Positions 18,269-46,314 of a stretch of DNA of 64,000 bases are shown here, one piece after another. The stretch's first letter is position 1, and the number at the start of each line of letters is the position of its first letter. Source of the DNA: Oscillospiraceae bacterium (lineage in GTDB: Bacteria; Bacillota; Clostridia; Oscillospirales; Oscillospiraceae); NCBI GenBank assembly GCA_015067785.1, contig SVLR01000001.1, positions 16,949 to 80,948 on the forward strand. Direction: 5' to 3'. A program made the translations under genes and the position numbers. The notes beneath the pieces were generated by a model, which saw only the letters and a program-made list of their open reading frames with translations, had not been told where the DNA came from and searched no databases.

Positions 18269-20062
18269 TCAGTCAGTTTCGTATGATCTAAAAAACTCAA
18301 TTGCCAATCTTCTGGACTCGCTATGCTGTACCATTTTACCGTTATAGTTGTCAATTTGTCCTTGCGGACCGTTGTCCCATGCATTATGATTACCGGTATC
18401 ATATAGTTTTAGCTTAACCGTTGCACCCCCACGCTCAAGCATACCAGTTAAGTATTCGCTATAGCGGTAGGAAACAGTTGCATCATCCTTGTTGTGAATG
18501 ATCAGCAAAGGGCAAGGATGGGTAGCAGTCAGTTGTGTGTACAGGGCAGCTTCCTGTGCATCCGCAACAGTCGCATTAGCTGGCAGTTTTTCAAAAATCA
18601 CAGAAGGATCACAGGAGGATAGCTTAGCAAATATTGGAGAATACGGGATCACCTTATCAAAGTTATGCCGGAAATAATCGATTTCTGCCTGCGTAGGCGT
18701 ATGCTTAGTATTTGTAAACGCGGGCTGAACACCCTCAAACCCAAAATAAGAAGATATCCTCTCACGCTGGTAAGTCCCTGTTGCCCAAGGATTGCAGTAT
18801 GCTTGCTTATATAGATCAATAACAGGACAGTTGGCAACCTGCGCCAACACAGGGAATTTACCACTCTGTACAATTTGGAAGGAAGACAATCCGCCCATAG
18901 AAGATCCCAACACAAAGACACCATCGGTTTTGAGATTAAACCGCTTCATTACATATTCGTAGCCTTTTTCATAACACTCCAGTACAGTCGGATTTCCATA
19001 GTGCAGCTCTTCCCCATCTCCAAGAGCGGGCGGGCAAGCATACATATCCATAATGGCATAGCCCATATCCAGCCAATAGGTTTGACTATGAGATTTTGCT
19101 TCGAATGACTTGTATATATCCAGTTCAGCGCCCGCGCCGTGGCAAGTAATAATCAAACGGGTCGGCTCTCCATCCTTCGTATAGTTCTCAGGAAGCATAA
19201 TATAACCATAGTCGGTTGCCTCTACTATAGCATCTTTTCCAAGGGCGGGGGCAATATTCACTTTTACGGTAAATGCATGCGTCCCATTTGCGGGCCGATC
19301 AAGCTTTTCCGTAATATGCTGTGTTTCCTCAATCTCGCTGCCGATAAATTCAACATAGCGGAACATTTCAGTATTATCCGCTTCCGTTTTCCAATCCTGC
19401 AAATAGCCATAACGAAAGATCGTTGCATTCTCAGGGATATCCACTGTAATCCATTGGTATCCCACCGTTGGATCACAAACACCGGAAATATATCCGTTAT
19501 TACTAAAAAATGCAGATCCCCATCTTTGACCAGTTTTAAAAGTCAAAAAACGCACCTTTTCTGCGCCATTAGGAATTTTTATATCGGAATACCAGTTATT
19601 TACAAATGTAGTATTCAATTCACCTGTATCAGCATTTACTCCACCCTGCTGCCATACCAAATCGGAAGCAGTAATTCTTACAGCACCTCGCTTAAGTGCA
19701 AAAAGACCATTCTTGCCTACAGTGACAGAAAAATAGCTTTCCGATTCGTCAATAAACTTGGAAGCCGAATCGTCCAGCATCGCTTTCAGGGCTTCTCTTT
19801 CGGTTGCGTACGCGCCCTTGGGGGCACCTTTATGGAGAGCGACGAAGCGGTTACCGGACTGGTAGAGCATATATTCGGGGGCTGTACCGCCGTTTTCGAT
19901 CAAATAGTTTGTATAGGCGTTTTTTGCTTCCTGCAAGGCTTTGCTGTCATTGGCTTTGCCAATCAAGCCGGAAAATGTAGGAATCAGCACAGTAGCAAGG
20001 ATAGCGATCACCGCAATGACGATCACCAGTTCTACCGTAGTAAAGCCTTTTTTGTTTTTCAT
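18269..20062 (-). CDS. pseudopilin-type N-terminal methylation domain fused to a C-terminal alpha/beta hydrolase (locus A)
   Basis: MKNKKGFTTVELVIVIAVIAILATVLIPTFSG (prepilin peptidase site and hydrophobic helix); C-terminal LGSSMGG nucleophile elbow, HNKDDATV acidic-residue region and GNHNAWD His region. Confidence 0.88.
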   Translation of the reverse strand: MKNKKGFTTVELVIVIAVIAILATVLIPTFSGLIGKANDSKALQEAKNAYTNYLIENGGTAPEYMLYQSGNRFVALHKGAPKGAYATEREALKAMLDDSASKFIDESESYFSVTVGKNGLFALKRGAVRITASDLVWQQGGVNADTGELNTTFVNNWYSDIKIPNGAEKVRFLTFKTGQRWGSAFFSNNGYISGVCDPTVGYQWITVDIPENATIFRYGYLQDWKTEADNTEMFRYVEFIGSEIEETQHITEKLDRPANGTHAFTVKVNIAPALGKDAIVEATDYGYIMLPENYTKDGEPTRLIITCHGAGAELDIYKSFEAKSHSQTYWLDMGYAIMDMYACPPALGDGEELHYGNPTVLECYEKGYEYVMKRFNLKTDGVFVLGSSMGGLSSFQIVQSGKFPVLAQVANCPVIDLYKQAYCNPWATGTYQRERISSYFGFEGVQPAFTNTKHTPTQAEIDYFRHNFDKVIPYSPIFAKLSSCDPSVIFEKLPANATVADAQEAALYTQLTATHPCPLLIIHNKDDATVSYRYSEYLTGMLERGGATVKLKLYDTGNHNAWDNGPQGQIDNYNGKMVQHSESRRLAIEFFRSYETD

Positions 20063-20081: not shown

Positions 20082-20110
20082 AAAAAGGTGCGCAGCGGTC
20101 GCCACGCACC
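20082..20110 (-). terminator. intrinsic terminator inside the 5' leader of locus A
   Basis: Minus strand GGTGCGTGGCGACCGCTGCGCACCTTTTT: ~10-bp stem plus U5, located 5' of the RBS. Confidence 0.8.
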
Positions 20111-20240
20111 GAAAAATGCATAGCCTCAAATGCTGCGACACATCTTTCACGCCAAAACAGGTGCAAAAACGAGGATGCATTTTTACAAAAAGTAAAATGC
20201 ACCTACTTTGGCTAAATATTCAGATGTGTCGCAAGTAAAT
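20082..20240 (-). ncRNA. candidate structured 5' leader / attenuator RNA, copy A
   Basis: P1 20222-20233 with 20134-20145 (12 bp); second stem GCCAAA/UUUGGC plus GGUGCA/UGCACC; long-range AAAAAUGCAU with AUGCAUUUUU (20175-20184 with 20112-20121); terminator at 3' end; same architecture as copy B. Confidence 0.7.
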
Positions 20241-20275
20241 CATACCACACCAAAAATAGAAATGCAAGTGTTTCC
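20240..20275 (-). promoter_or_regulatory. promoter of leader A (TTGCAT-N17-TATGAT)
   Basis: Minus strand CAGGAAACACTTGCATTTCTATTTTTGGTGTGGTATGATTTACTTGCGAC; predicted TSS falls at the start of P1. Confidence 0.7.
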
Positions 20276-31212: not shown

Positions 31213-31475
31213 ATAAAAATAAAGCCCTCCGTCCTTACGGACAGAGGGCGTAAATTACGCGGTACCACCTCTGGTTCGCCTACGCCTCACAGCAGTAGAC
31301 CTTACAGCGTCTATGACGCATTGCGCTTTTTCGGGCGCACCCGTCCTCCCCTACTATTTCATTCAGAAAGGCCACTCCGGGAGGTATTTGGGCACACATT
31401 CTGCCGTCTTGCACCAACCGGCGGCTCTCTGTAAGAAGAGGTGCGCTTACTTCATCCCATCATTGTGTTAAGCCG
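31213..31475 (-). promoter_or_regulatory. T-box riboswitch (Tyr) upstream of tyrS
   Basis: Minus strand AGAGGTGGTACCGCG T-box (around 31258-31271), terminator GCCCTCTGTCCGTAAGGACGGAGGGCTTTATTTTT, candidate UAC specifier at 31384-31386. Confidence 0.92.
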
Positions 31476-37761: not shown

Positions 37762-37789
37762 TTTTCATCCCTCTTAATCTAAAATTATG

Positions 37790-38405
37790 ACGGCAGCAGA
37801 CAGGATAAATCTTACGGCTTAGGTCGGGTTGTTTTTCACCGTGCAGAACCTGCCGTTGCCGTGCAGGCCGTTTCCGTTTGATCCGCGCGCTCACTTGTTG
37901 CCGGAAGTGAGTACCCGATTGCCACTGAGTCCGTACTGTAATCCCCTGTCTGCCCAATTACGACAGCCTAGGTGTTTTCCACCGCAGCACAAGTCACCCC
38001 TTAGCCTCTTTTGCAAGGATGGTTTCCAAAGGCAATTCCGGAAATGGCTCTGGCCATCAGCCACATTCCGGCGGCTCCTTTTTCCCCGCATACTCACTCA
38101 AGGCAGGCTACACTGCACACAGCACACGATTCTGCGCACTGCCTTGCAGGTTCATACCAGGCTCGTACGCGATCGGCGTTACAGCAAATGCTGTAGCTTT
38201 ACCGTCGTCGCACAACACCAGGTCTCCACGGTAACCGGGTCGTATACGCCATGCCATTGGCGTGCGCCCTGAAACCTTAACCCCCAGCATCCACCCTAAA
38301 CTGGGCGTAAAAAGCAGACACAAGGGACTTCATCGATATGCCCTTCATAGGATTTTTAGGCCCTACCTGGGAGGTGATCGTTCTGACTAGGATACTGCAC
38401 CGTCA
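37790..38405 (-). ncRNA. OLE (ornate large extremophilic) RNA candidate
   Basis: About 615 nt, no convincing CDS, dense inverted repeats (e.g. minus strand CCGGAATGTGGCTGATGGCCAGAGCCATTTCCGG; ACAGCATTTGCTGT), own promoter, directly upstream of a small membrane protein and dxs-tlyA-nadK-argR-recN. Confidence 0.8.
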
Positions 38406-38411
38406 AAATGT

Positions 38412-38440
38412 ATATTATCACAGTATTTATGAATATTCAA
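38412..38440 (-). promoter_or_regulatory. promoter of the OLE-like RNA (TTGAAT-N17-TAATAT with extended -10 TGTGATAATAT)
   Basis: -35 38435-38440, -10 38412-38417 on the minus strand. Confidence 0.7.
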
Positions 38441-43996: not shown

Positions 43997-46099
43997 TCAT
44001 TGGAACATCACATTGATACTTTGACCATAGTCGGCGGTCAGGTTGTTGTTTGATGAGTCTCTGACCATAAGCCGCATATATGCATATTCCCCAGCGTGGA
44101 GGTTCAGTTCGGTGAGATAACCATCTGGACTAGTAACCGGGCAGGAATGGAAACTAAAATTCTCATTATAGTAGATAGGGCATAATTTAGCATTGCCAGT
44201 GACGGTGATCTTCACGCCATCGGAAACATTGATGAAACCGGTGCGAATTCTGTTTGACATAGTTGCATCAGCACCAGTCGTAGAATTGATAGCACCGACC
44301 GACCAAAAAACGTTCTGTTCTCCGGAGGTCGCGACTGTCACTTGGATATTATTTCCGTATTCAGGAGTCAAGGTTGCATTGATGTTCGACTTATTTCTGG
44401 CCACAATCCGCATATATACATATTTTCCGGAGGGAACGTTCAGATCATTAACACTCCAATCCACGAAATCACATTTCGTGAGATCCTTGTTAAAATAAAA
44501 GACATAGTACTCAGCGCCGCCGGTAGCGGAAATGGATACACCGTTGGTAATCTCGATGTAATTAGTGGAAACCCTGGTCGTCCAGCCATTGTTCGAATCT
44601 TTTCCGTCAGAGGAATTAAGAGCCATAACCGACCAGACAATACCACCTTCCGTATCCACTTTTGCGGTAGAGGTGATCGTGATATTTCCGGTAACGGCAG
44701 GGATGGTGATCTTGCCGTCTACATACACAGAGTCGGTAATATCCACTCCATCCATCGTAACAGCAACAGAGGAGATTTGACAGCCTGAGGCGGCGTACAG
44801 TCTCGCGTTGATGGATGTTCCGTCGGATATCAGGGTGGGTTTCACATCGGCGTTCACACCGCTCAGATTCCATGCTACAGCGTGATAGGCATCCTTACCC
44901 AGCATGGCATCGATTACTGCCTGACTAATAAAATCCATTCCTGTTGCGGTAGGATGAACCGCATCACCAAAGTATGTTTTCCACGTTGTAGAAGCATTGT
45001 CGACGCAGTGCTCCAGATCAACAAAAGTCGCGCCGACTTTTTCTGCCACCTTTTTTAGTTCGGCATTGAATGCAGTAGGCTGGCCGTGATCGTGGTAACC
45101 GCCTTGATAAGGCTCCACGCGGGGCAACAAGCTCAGGCAGTAAATCTTCACATCAGGATAGGCTTGCTTCATCTTGTCCAGCGCAACCGCATAAGCTTCG
45201 CAGGTGCTTGTGGGATTCTCCGCATTGGAAAGATCTACACTGTCTGCGGTGCCTAAAGGCTTATTACAAAAACTTGAGTTTACACCGCTTACATTTCTGC
45301 AAGTCTCACAGACATTAAGATTCTTATCAGTTCTGCTTGTACACTCCGCACAATTCAGCATTACTTGGCAATTGGTGCAATCAGAATTTATATGATAGCT
45401 AAAATCATTGGTGCCCATAAATACGAGGATCACATCAGGCTTTTCCTCACCGGAGTGCAGATTCACACACCGATCTCGATATGCTGCGTAGTTGCCATTG
45501 CGAATACCGTTTCCTTGAAAATATTCATCAGAAAGAATACGGCTACCGCCTGAAGCATTATTAACAAGTAACTCCATCCCCATCGTATCGATGACCTGCT
45601 GCCACCAAGTATCAGATCGGGATTTAACAGTCGTGTCATGGGGATATACAGCATTCAGTACATTGGGTACGCCACCAAATGTGGATATGCTATCACCCAT
45701 AATAGATACCTTTTTTCCTGCAAAGGAGAAAGGAGGCTCACCGGGGCTAGCAGCACCGTATATATGCATTTTGCCGTATTTTACAAGCTTTGTGGGGTCT
45801 GCATTTGCGATCATAGATTTCAGCGCTTCTTTATCGGTCGCATAAACGCCCTTGGGGGTGCCATTGTGGAGGGCAACAAAGCGGCCGTCTGCTTCATAAA
45901 GGATATATTCCGGGGCGGTGCCGCCGTTTTCTATCAGGTAGTTTGTATGGGCGTTTTTTGCTTCCTGCAAGGCTTTGCTGTCGTTGGCTTTGCCAATTAG
46001 ACCGGAAAAAGTAGGAATTAGAACGGTTGCCAAAATCGCAATCACTGCGATCACGATCACCAGTTCTACAGTTGTAAAGCCTTTTCTATTTCTCTGCAT
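43997..46099 (-). CDS. pseudopilin-type N-terminal domain fused to SGNH/GDSL hydrolase and C-terminal repeat modules (locus B)
   Basis: MQRNRKGFTTVELVIVIAVIAILATVLIPTFSG; VSIMGDSIST (block I), FMGTNDF (block III), DAVHPTATG (block V); two C-terminal WSVxAxNSxxG... modules. Confidence 0.9.
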   Translation of the reverse strand: MQRNRKGFTTVELVIVIAVIAILATVLIPTFSGLIGKANDSKALQEAKNAHTNYLIENGGTAPEYILYEADGRFVALHNGTPKGVYATDKEALKSMIANADPTKLVKYGKMHIYGAASPGEPPFSFAGKKVSIMGDSISTFGGVPNVLNAVYPHDTTVKSRSDTWWQQVIDTMGMELLVNNASGGSRILSDEYFQGNGIRNGNYAAYRDRCVNLHSGEEKPDVILVFMGTNDFSYHINSDCTNCQVMLNCAECTSRTDKNLNVCETCRNVSGVNSSFCNKPLGTADSVDLSNAENPTSTCEAYAVALDKMKQAYPDVKIYCLSLLPRVEPYQGGYHDHGQPTAFNAELKKVAEKVGATFVDLEHCVDNASTTWKTYFGDAVHPTATGMDFISQAVIDAMLGKDAYHAVAWNLSGVNADVKPTLISDGTSINARLYAASGCQISSVAVTMDGVDITDSVYVDGKITIPAVTGNITITSTAKVDTEGGIVWSVMALNSSDGKDSNNGWTTRVSTNYIEITNGVSISATGGAEYYVFYFNKDLTKCDFVDWSVNDLNVPSGKYVYMRIVARNKSNINATLTPEYGNNIQVTVATSGEQNVFWSVGAINSTTGADATMSNRIRTGFINVSDGVKITVTGNAKLCPIYYNENFSFHSCPVTSPDGYLTELNLHAGEYAYMRLMVRDSSNNNLTADYGQSINVMFQ

Positions 46100-46144: not shown

Positions 46145-46279
46145 GAAAAACGCATAACCCCATTGCTGCGACACAATCATTCGACGAACCCAAAGGATGC
46201 CAAATTAAGGGTGCGTTTTTACCAAAGCAAAAACACATCCTTTGTATCGTCGCAATATATGATTGTGTCGCAAGGTTAT
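46116..46279 (-). ncRNA. candidate structured 5' leader / attenuator RNA, copy B
   Basis: P1 46259-46272 with 46167-46180 (14 bp); second stem CGACGA/UCGUCG plus AAAGGAUG/CAUCCUUU; long-range AAAAACGCA with UGCGUUUUU (46212-46220 with 46146-46154); covaries with copy A. Confidence 0.7.
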
Positions 46280-46314
46280 GGTATCACAGCCGTCAAGAAA
46301 ATGCAAGGGTTTCC
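46279..46314 (-). promoter_or_regulatory. promoter of leader B (TTGCAT-N17-TACCAT, TGTGA extended -10)
   Basis: Minus strand GGCAGGAAACCCTTGCATTTTCTTGACGGCTGTGATACCATAACCTTGCGAC. Confidence 0.65.

Follow-up and report, generated by a model that had tools for sequence, protein, structure and literature searches.

A large family of putative pseudoknot-controlled transcription attenuators preceding genes for secreted and surface proteins in Clostridia

Comparison of a structured leader RNA, encoded in a 64,000-nt stretch of Oscillospiraceae DNA (this whole stretch being referred to as the window), with homologous sequences from other genomes suggested that it belongs to a large uncatalogued family of cis-acting, pseudoknot-controlled transcription attenuators in Clostridia. 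We assign this reading a probability of about 0.8, in the absence of any expression, probing or ligand data. The family probably constitutes a riboswitch class with an unknown ligand; in the absence of a known ligand, the designation 'riboswitch' has yet to be proven.

Leader architecture in the window

The leader, hereafter copy A, is a promoter-proximal structured element of ~ 155 nt at 20234-20082 (minus strand, to which all window coordinates given here refer), with an intrinsic terminator just 5' of the start codon of the following gene. Its promoter, TTGCAT-N17-TATGAT (20267-20239), was identified from sequence and consists of a -35 hexamer TTGCAT (20262-20267), of which homologs keep TTG, and a -10 hexamer TATGAT (20239-20244) in an extended -10 context located 5 nt 5' of helix P1. 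The latter is a 12-bp helix of UGCGACACAUCU (20222-20233) and AGAUGUGUCGCA (20134-20145), both strands being supported by covariation in the family. The second stem reads GCCAAAGUAGGUGCA/UGCACCUGUUUUGGC in the sequence, and the strands of P2 were placed at 20198-20212 (5') and 20151-20165 (3') by folding and comparison of cognate halves.

Perfect complementarity over 10 nt exists between the apical strand AAAAAUGCAU (20184-20175), for which family-wide pairing with the linker provides the support, and the linker strand AUGCAUUUUU (20121-20112), supported by sequence, family pairing and tree simulation; together they form a predicted pseudoknot. Overlapping the linker strand is the 5' strand of a putative antiterminator, GCUAUGCA (20117-20124), whose partner UGCGUGGC (20101-20108) is the terminator 5' arm, an assignment based on family pairing and energies. 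The intrinsic terminator itself, GGUGCGUGGC-GACC-GCUGCGCACC-U5 (20082-20110; sequence and family pairing), is followed by a Shine-Dalgarno (SD) sequence (20076-20071) and an ATG start codon (20062), both recognised from sequence. Folding energy of the leader was -66.1 kcal/mol, compared to -39.0 ± 3.7 kcal/mol in dinucleotide shuffles (z = -7.4). The gene downstream (18269-20062) encodes a protein of 597 aa with a prepilin N-terminus and an alpha/beta hydrolase domain (PF07963, PF00326).

A first-pass annotation, made from the sequence alone, had already listed the promoter, P1, the second stem, the apical strand, the linker with its 10-nt complementarity, the terminator, the SD and the start codon, and each of these was recovered at the same place.

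Copy B and other elements of the source genome

A second copy, also anticipated by that annotation, is present at 46273-46116 (P1 to terminator; covariance-model score of 150.5 bits). Copy B is 74% identical to copy A across the element and is preceded by the promoter TTGCAT-N17-TACCAT (46278-46306; sequence). The pseudoknots of the two copies differ by a compensatory change, AAAAAUGCA/UGCAUUUUU versus AAAAACGCA/UGCGUUUUU. The gene under copy B (43997-46099) encodes 700 aa with a prepilin N-terminus and a GDSL lipase/acylhydrolase domain (PF13472, PF07963); the prepilin N-termini of the two window genes are nearly identical, yet they are joined to different hydrolase domains.

Six covariance-model matches were obtained in the source genome, namely copies A and B and four elements of a divergent subtype (L230:2061-2271, L231:3853-4041, L231:8745-8890 and L232:2185-2398). 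P1 of this subtype is GCCAAACUAA/UUAGUUUGGCG, and its 11-bp pseudoknot (AAAAAYGCAAA/UUUGYRUUUUU) has undergone a separate compensatory change. Two of the divergent copies are located 5' of near-identical lipoprotein genes, and one 5' of a gene for a membrane-anchored protein.

The window additionally carries a full-length OLE RNA between copies A and B (37774-38419; RF01071, 419.6 bits) and a T-box leader heading a tyrosyl-tRNA-synthetase-like gene (31241-31472; RF00230).

Distribution of the family

DNA similarity located the leader in 10/61 genomes of the genus and 18/151 genomes of the family, a few of the weakest matches being short and doubtful. An exact pattern combining the P1 3' strand and the linker matched at least 120 stretches in a species-level genome collection; the matches listed came from Oscillospiraceae, Ruminococcaceae and other Clostridia, and nearly all were in uncultured gut or rumen genomes. 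Genome searches with a covariance model built from 29 sequences were positive for 103 of 295 genomes of the order (62 of 148 genera) and, when run across the class Clostridia, for 79 of 290 genomes at E ≤ 1e-6. Copies per genome reached at least 10 in these searches, and such numbers are lower bounds, because stricter filters were used and the scored candidates were limited. The same model gave zero leader matches in the phylum sample outside the class Clostridia, and plasmids contained no leader match. Judged by these searches, the leader is a large family and not a matter of two copies. The genomes carrying it are mostly metagenome-assembled.

Complete elements, each with its own terminator, were also seen in tandem pairs (L061, L068, L113, L159, L171, L215, L219 and L229). 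Leader-like sequences occurred on viral or phage-labelled contigs (L164; MT837627.1:2227-2337; MT835845.1:2169-2233), which could represent phage carriage or mislabelled host DNA.

Comparative support for the structure

Structure statistics were calculated from 108 distinct aligned sequences. P1 was paired in 98.8% of cases with double changes in 7 of 11 pairs (the fourth pair, for instance, being GC in 66 sequences, CG in 36 and UA in 4), and its sequence is conserved beyond what pairing needs. The terminator was 99.6% paired with double changes in 8 of 10 pairs. For the pseudoknot between the apical AAAAAYGCA and the linker UGCRUUUUU the figure was 99.0%: five A-U pairs were almost invariant, and both sides changed in the two variable pairs (CG 43, UA 37, UG 27; GC 84, AU 19, GU 3). 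The latter figure is not circular, because the pseudoknot was absent from the alignment model; the apical strand was likewise absent from the DNA search pattern. Collectively, 269 double-change cells were counted over the whole structure, versus 55 ± 7 after shuffling, and pairing fell to 32-51% in slid-partner controls.

The homologs from the DNA pattern search were chosen with the P1 3' strand and the linker fixed, and the counting script demanded a terminator, so that linker and terminator were partly selected for. The apical strand, terminator arm sequence, P2 sequence and downstream genes were outside this selection. Kinship of the sequences inflates covariation counts, and a tree simulation was therefore run in which columns evolve independently on a tree built without the tested columns. 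Forbidden combinations at the two variable pseudoknot pairs numbered 0, with 14.2 ± 4.0 and 15.4 ± 4.3 expected. In a simple count of step-coupling on the tree, neither the first pseudoknot pair nor the antiterminator pair stood out from other variable columns, and the simulation was used instead.

Sequence of P2 was almost unconserved (41% identity), yet its cognate halves formed a median of 15 bp compared to 9 bp for mismatched halves, and at least 10 pairs were possible in 93% of cognate versus 27% of mismatched halves. P1, P2 and the pseudoknot thereby satisfy one criterion of a riboswitch, that of a conserved structured 5' UTR receptor with supported tertiary pairing. Comparative evidence, which is all that is available here, shows the family, P1, P2, the pseudoknot and the terminator, as well as the position and the gene association of the leader.

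Two further structural candidates were considered. A hairpin P3, pairing an upstream U-rich strand with the apical A5, was common; however, 7 bp or more were formed by 70% of cognate and 56% of mismatched halves, and column pairing was poor. P3 would compete for the apical strand and, owing to this poor pairing support, is retained as a possibility only. A U.A-U triple helix of the upstream U-tract, A5 and the linker U5 is purely hypothetical, and strand polarity was unfavourable to it.

Antiterminator and competing helices

The predicted antiterminator pairs the linker GGAGCUAUGCG, the 3' part of which doubles as the pseudoknot strand, with the terminator 5' arm; across its 11 bp, pairing was possible in 93.4% of cells. 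In some members the helix enters an enlarged terminator loop, as in L027 (CAAACGGAGC with GUUCCGUUUG) and L023 (CAAAUGAGGC with GUCUCAUUUG). Median antiterminator energy was -15.1 kcal/mol compared to -6.6 kcal/mol with a shuffled linker, the native value being lower in 139/139 elements. Terminators had a median of -15.4 kcal/mol, and the antiterminator was within 3 kcal/mol of the terminator in 100 of 139 elements; two near-isoenergetic, mutually exclusive helices are what would be expected of a switch. Antiterminators of copies A and B (-12.7 and -9.4 kcal/mol) were weaker than the respective terminators (-14.5 and -15.8 kcal/mol).

Most antiterminator pairs were near-invariant or changed on one side only, leaving a single informative pair (-5:4; P = 0.012 on the tree), for which simple step-coupling was no greater than in other variable columns. 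As far as sequence comparison can tell, the antiterminator is supported, albeit less strongly than P1, P2, the pseudoknot and the terminator, and its covariation is modest. With that qualification the leader satisfies two sequence criteria of an attenuator: its intrinsic terminator lies past the promoter and ahead of the start codon, and a mutually exclusive antiterminator is conserved. The competing fold suggested in the first-pass annotation, UGCACC with the terminator 5' strand, was not borne out: it could form in 26% of cognate and 29% of mismatched combinations and was broken in copy B, so the supported partner of the terminator 5' arm is the linker.

Some linkers contain NUG after GGAG, which might point to attenuation mediated by a leader peptide and the translating ribosome. 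An SD-preceded upstream ORF of at least 8 codons was however found in only 33/139 elements, at scattered positions, and the reading frame through linker and terminator was not preserved. Lacking a conserved short ORF in the leader, this explanation was rejected as scarcely credible.

Promoters, start codons and downstream genes

An extended -10 element (TGnTAnaaT) ended exactly 5 nt 5' of P1 in 121/130 homologs, and transcripts should therefore start at the base of P1; TTG was present at the -35 position in 119/130 homologs for which a -10 was scored. In 88/135 elements (65%) the U-run was followed within 60 nt by an SD and start codon, compared to 69/675 random places drawn from the same loci (10%), and the median distance from U-run to start codon was 23 nt. 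By this simple criterion about one third of elements had no SD-preceded start inside 60 nt.

By a simple rule, 61 of 88 downstream proteins carried a signal peptide or lipobox, versus 135 of 618 other ORFs. Among 74 downstream proteins, Pfam families included BspA-type leucine-rich repeats (14), S-layer homology (6) and zinc ribbons (4), with single or few cases of Big_2, dockerin, ricin-type lectin, CHAP, peptidases and others. According to these annotations, the family is generally tied to genes for secreted and surface proteins, mostly lipoproteins and secreted surface proteins, and the link to pilins is genome-specific. Pilin N-methyl motifs were found in 2/74 downstream proteins, a number equal to that of the window genes in the set, both of which bear the motif. 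The pilin-hydrolase association proposed at the outset thus holds for both window copies, which precede prepilin-hydrolase fusions, and does not extend to the family as a whole.

Having a promoter, a compact fold and a strong terminator, the unit could also be a stand-alone small RNA that merely adjoins genes. We consider this unlikely given the position of SD and start codons relative to random places, the enrichment of secreted proteins among the adjoining genes and the presence of an antiterminator. A mobile repeat (MITE-like palindrome) bearing promoter and terminator, to which the patchy spread, the many copies, some of them tandem, and the few matched phage-labelled contigs would conform, appears very unlikely: the register to the start codon is constant, P2 is fully variable yet paired, and compensatory pseudoknot changes and gene-class bias are signs of function.

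Proposed mechanism and significance

In the attenuator reading that we favour, transcription would begin at the base of P1, and P1, P2 and the apical strand would fold first. The linker would then join one of two helices. Pairing with the apical AAAAAYGCA in the pseudoknot would free the terminator 5' arm, so that the terminator forms and the mRNA ends 20-25 nt short of the start codon (OFF); alternatively, in the antiterminator the linker would hold the terminator 5' arm and polymerase would read through (ON). The choice of helix would fall to a stabiliser of the pseudoknotted receptor, most likely a small molecule, which would in this way set expression of lipoproteins and other surface and secreted proteins; a signal stabilising the receptor would repress. 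The equation of pseudoknot with OFF, control by a signal and the small-molecule nature of that signal are all inferred, as are the direction of switching, the identity of the signal and even the need for one.

The same switch could be operated by an RNA-binding regulator acting on the receptor domain. Restriction to one class, multiple copies and a single regulon-like set of surface genes would fit a lineage-specific RNA-binding protein, as would conservation of P1 sequence beyond pairing. On the other hand, a big receptor, a pseudoknot and conserved unpaired apical letters are, as general knowledge, more typical of metabolite aptamers, and no candidate protein is at hand; control by a protein is thus possible, if rather doubtful.

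Under either form of the attenuator, the leader probably decides whether each mRNA for a secreted or surface protein is completed or ends early. Few riboswitch classes attain 10 copies or more within one genome, and those that do usually mark a central signal. The family appears to place BspA-type leucine-rich-repeat, S-layer-homology, lectin and dockerin proteins, lipoproteins and pilin fusions under a single input sensed by RNA; the gut and rumen Clostridia concerned have scarcely been brought into culture. The broader proposition, of a hitherto unknown riboswitch class comprising hundreds of members, often at least 10 per genome, that responds to an unrecognised signal and globally controls the secreted and surface proteome of uncultured gut Clostridia, we put at about even odds. 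With a consensus, two rival helices and a list of genes available, ligand screens and mutational tests can readily be set up.

Comparison with known RNA families

Rfam 15 at gathering threshold detected nothing at either window copy or at the leader position of 20 homologous loci, and no credible match appeared at copies A and B at E ≤ 10; OLE RNA and the T-box of the same window were detected. Taken together with the strong covariation, these scans uphold the original proposal of a structured leader, not described before, that is built like an attenuator. The literature consulted, including PMC8632094, PMC8040213, PMC2864571 and PMC11109978, names no such leader. Supplementary tables were outside its scope, and an unnamed entry in a big candidate list (e.g. 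among the 3161 of PMC8040213) is consequently not excluded; with this reservation, the family is previously uncatalogued.

Covarying hairpins, a terminator and an antiterminator are shared with the trpB motif and other attenuator candidates (PMC11109978), as far as the main text of that paper describes them; the genes they accompany and their structure are different. Lipoprotein genes, Oscillospiraceae, Ruminococcaceae and Clostridia all go unmentioned in that main text.

In Clostridia, riboswitches for c-di-GMP likewise lie ahead of genes for pilins and surface proteins (PMC11477304, PMC6200980), which raises the question of a GEMM-like variant. Similarly to the leader, c-di-GMP-I (GEMM) and c-di-GMP-II riboswitches act in cis, occur in several copies per genome, have a terminator or pseudoknot and regulate clostridial pilins, adhesins and other surface proteins. 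The leader, however, matches neither in sequence nor in structure: besides the absence of any Rfam class at gathering score, no c-di-GMP class was matched at E ≤ 10 in either copy, in agreement with the mismatch to both consensuses noted in the first-pass annotation. It differs further in its long P1-P2 hairpin and in an A5/U5 pseudoknot extending to the expression platform. GGDEF domains (PF00990) were absent from 16/50 element-bearing genomes, some holding 10 copies, and c-di-GMP is for this reason unlikely to be the signal; a c-di-GMP variant is, overall, highly improbable.

T-box leaders (RF00230) resemble the element in being large leaders of Firmicutes with mutually exclusive antiterminator and terminator. 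Copies A and B were nevertheless not matched by RF00230, although the window T-box (31472-31241) was, and the antiterminator has no constant UGGN, the linker being mostly CGGAG with a variable first base. Fluoride (crcB) and preQ1-I riboswitches are terminator-type switches in which a receptor pseudoknot adjoins the terminator platform. In comparison with these, the fold and conserved letters of the leader are unrelated, its helices are much longer, and it is the linker itself that would swap between pseudoknot and antiterminator.
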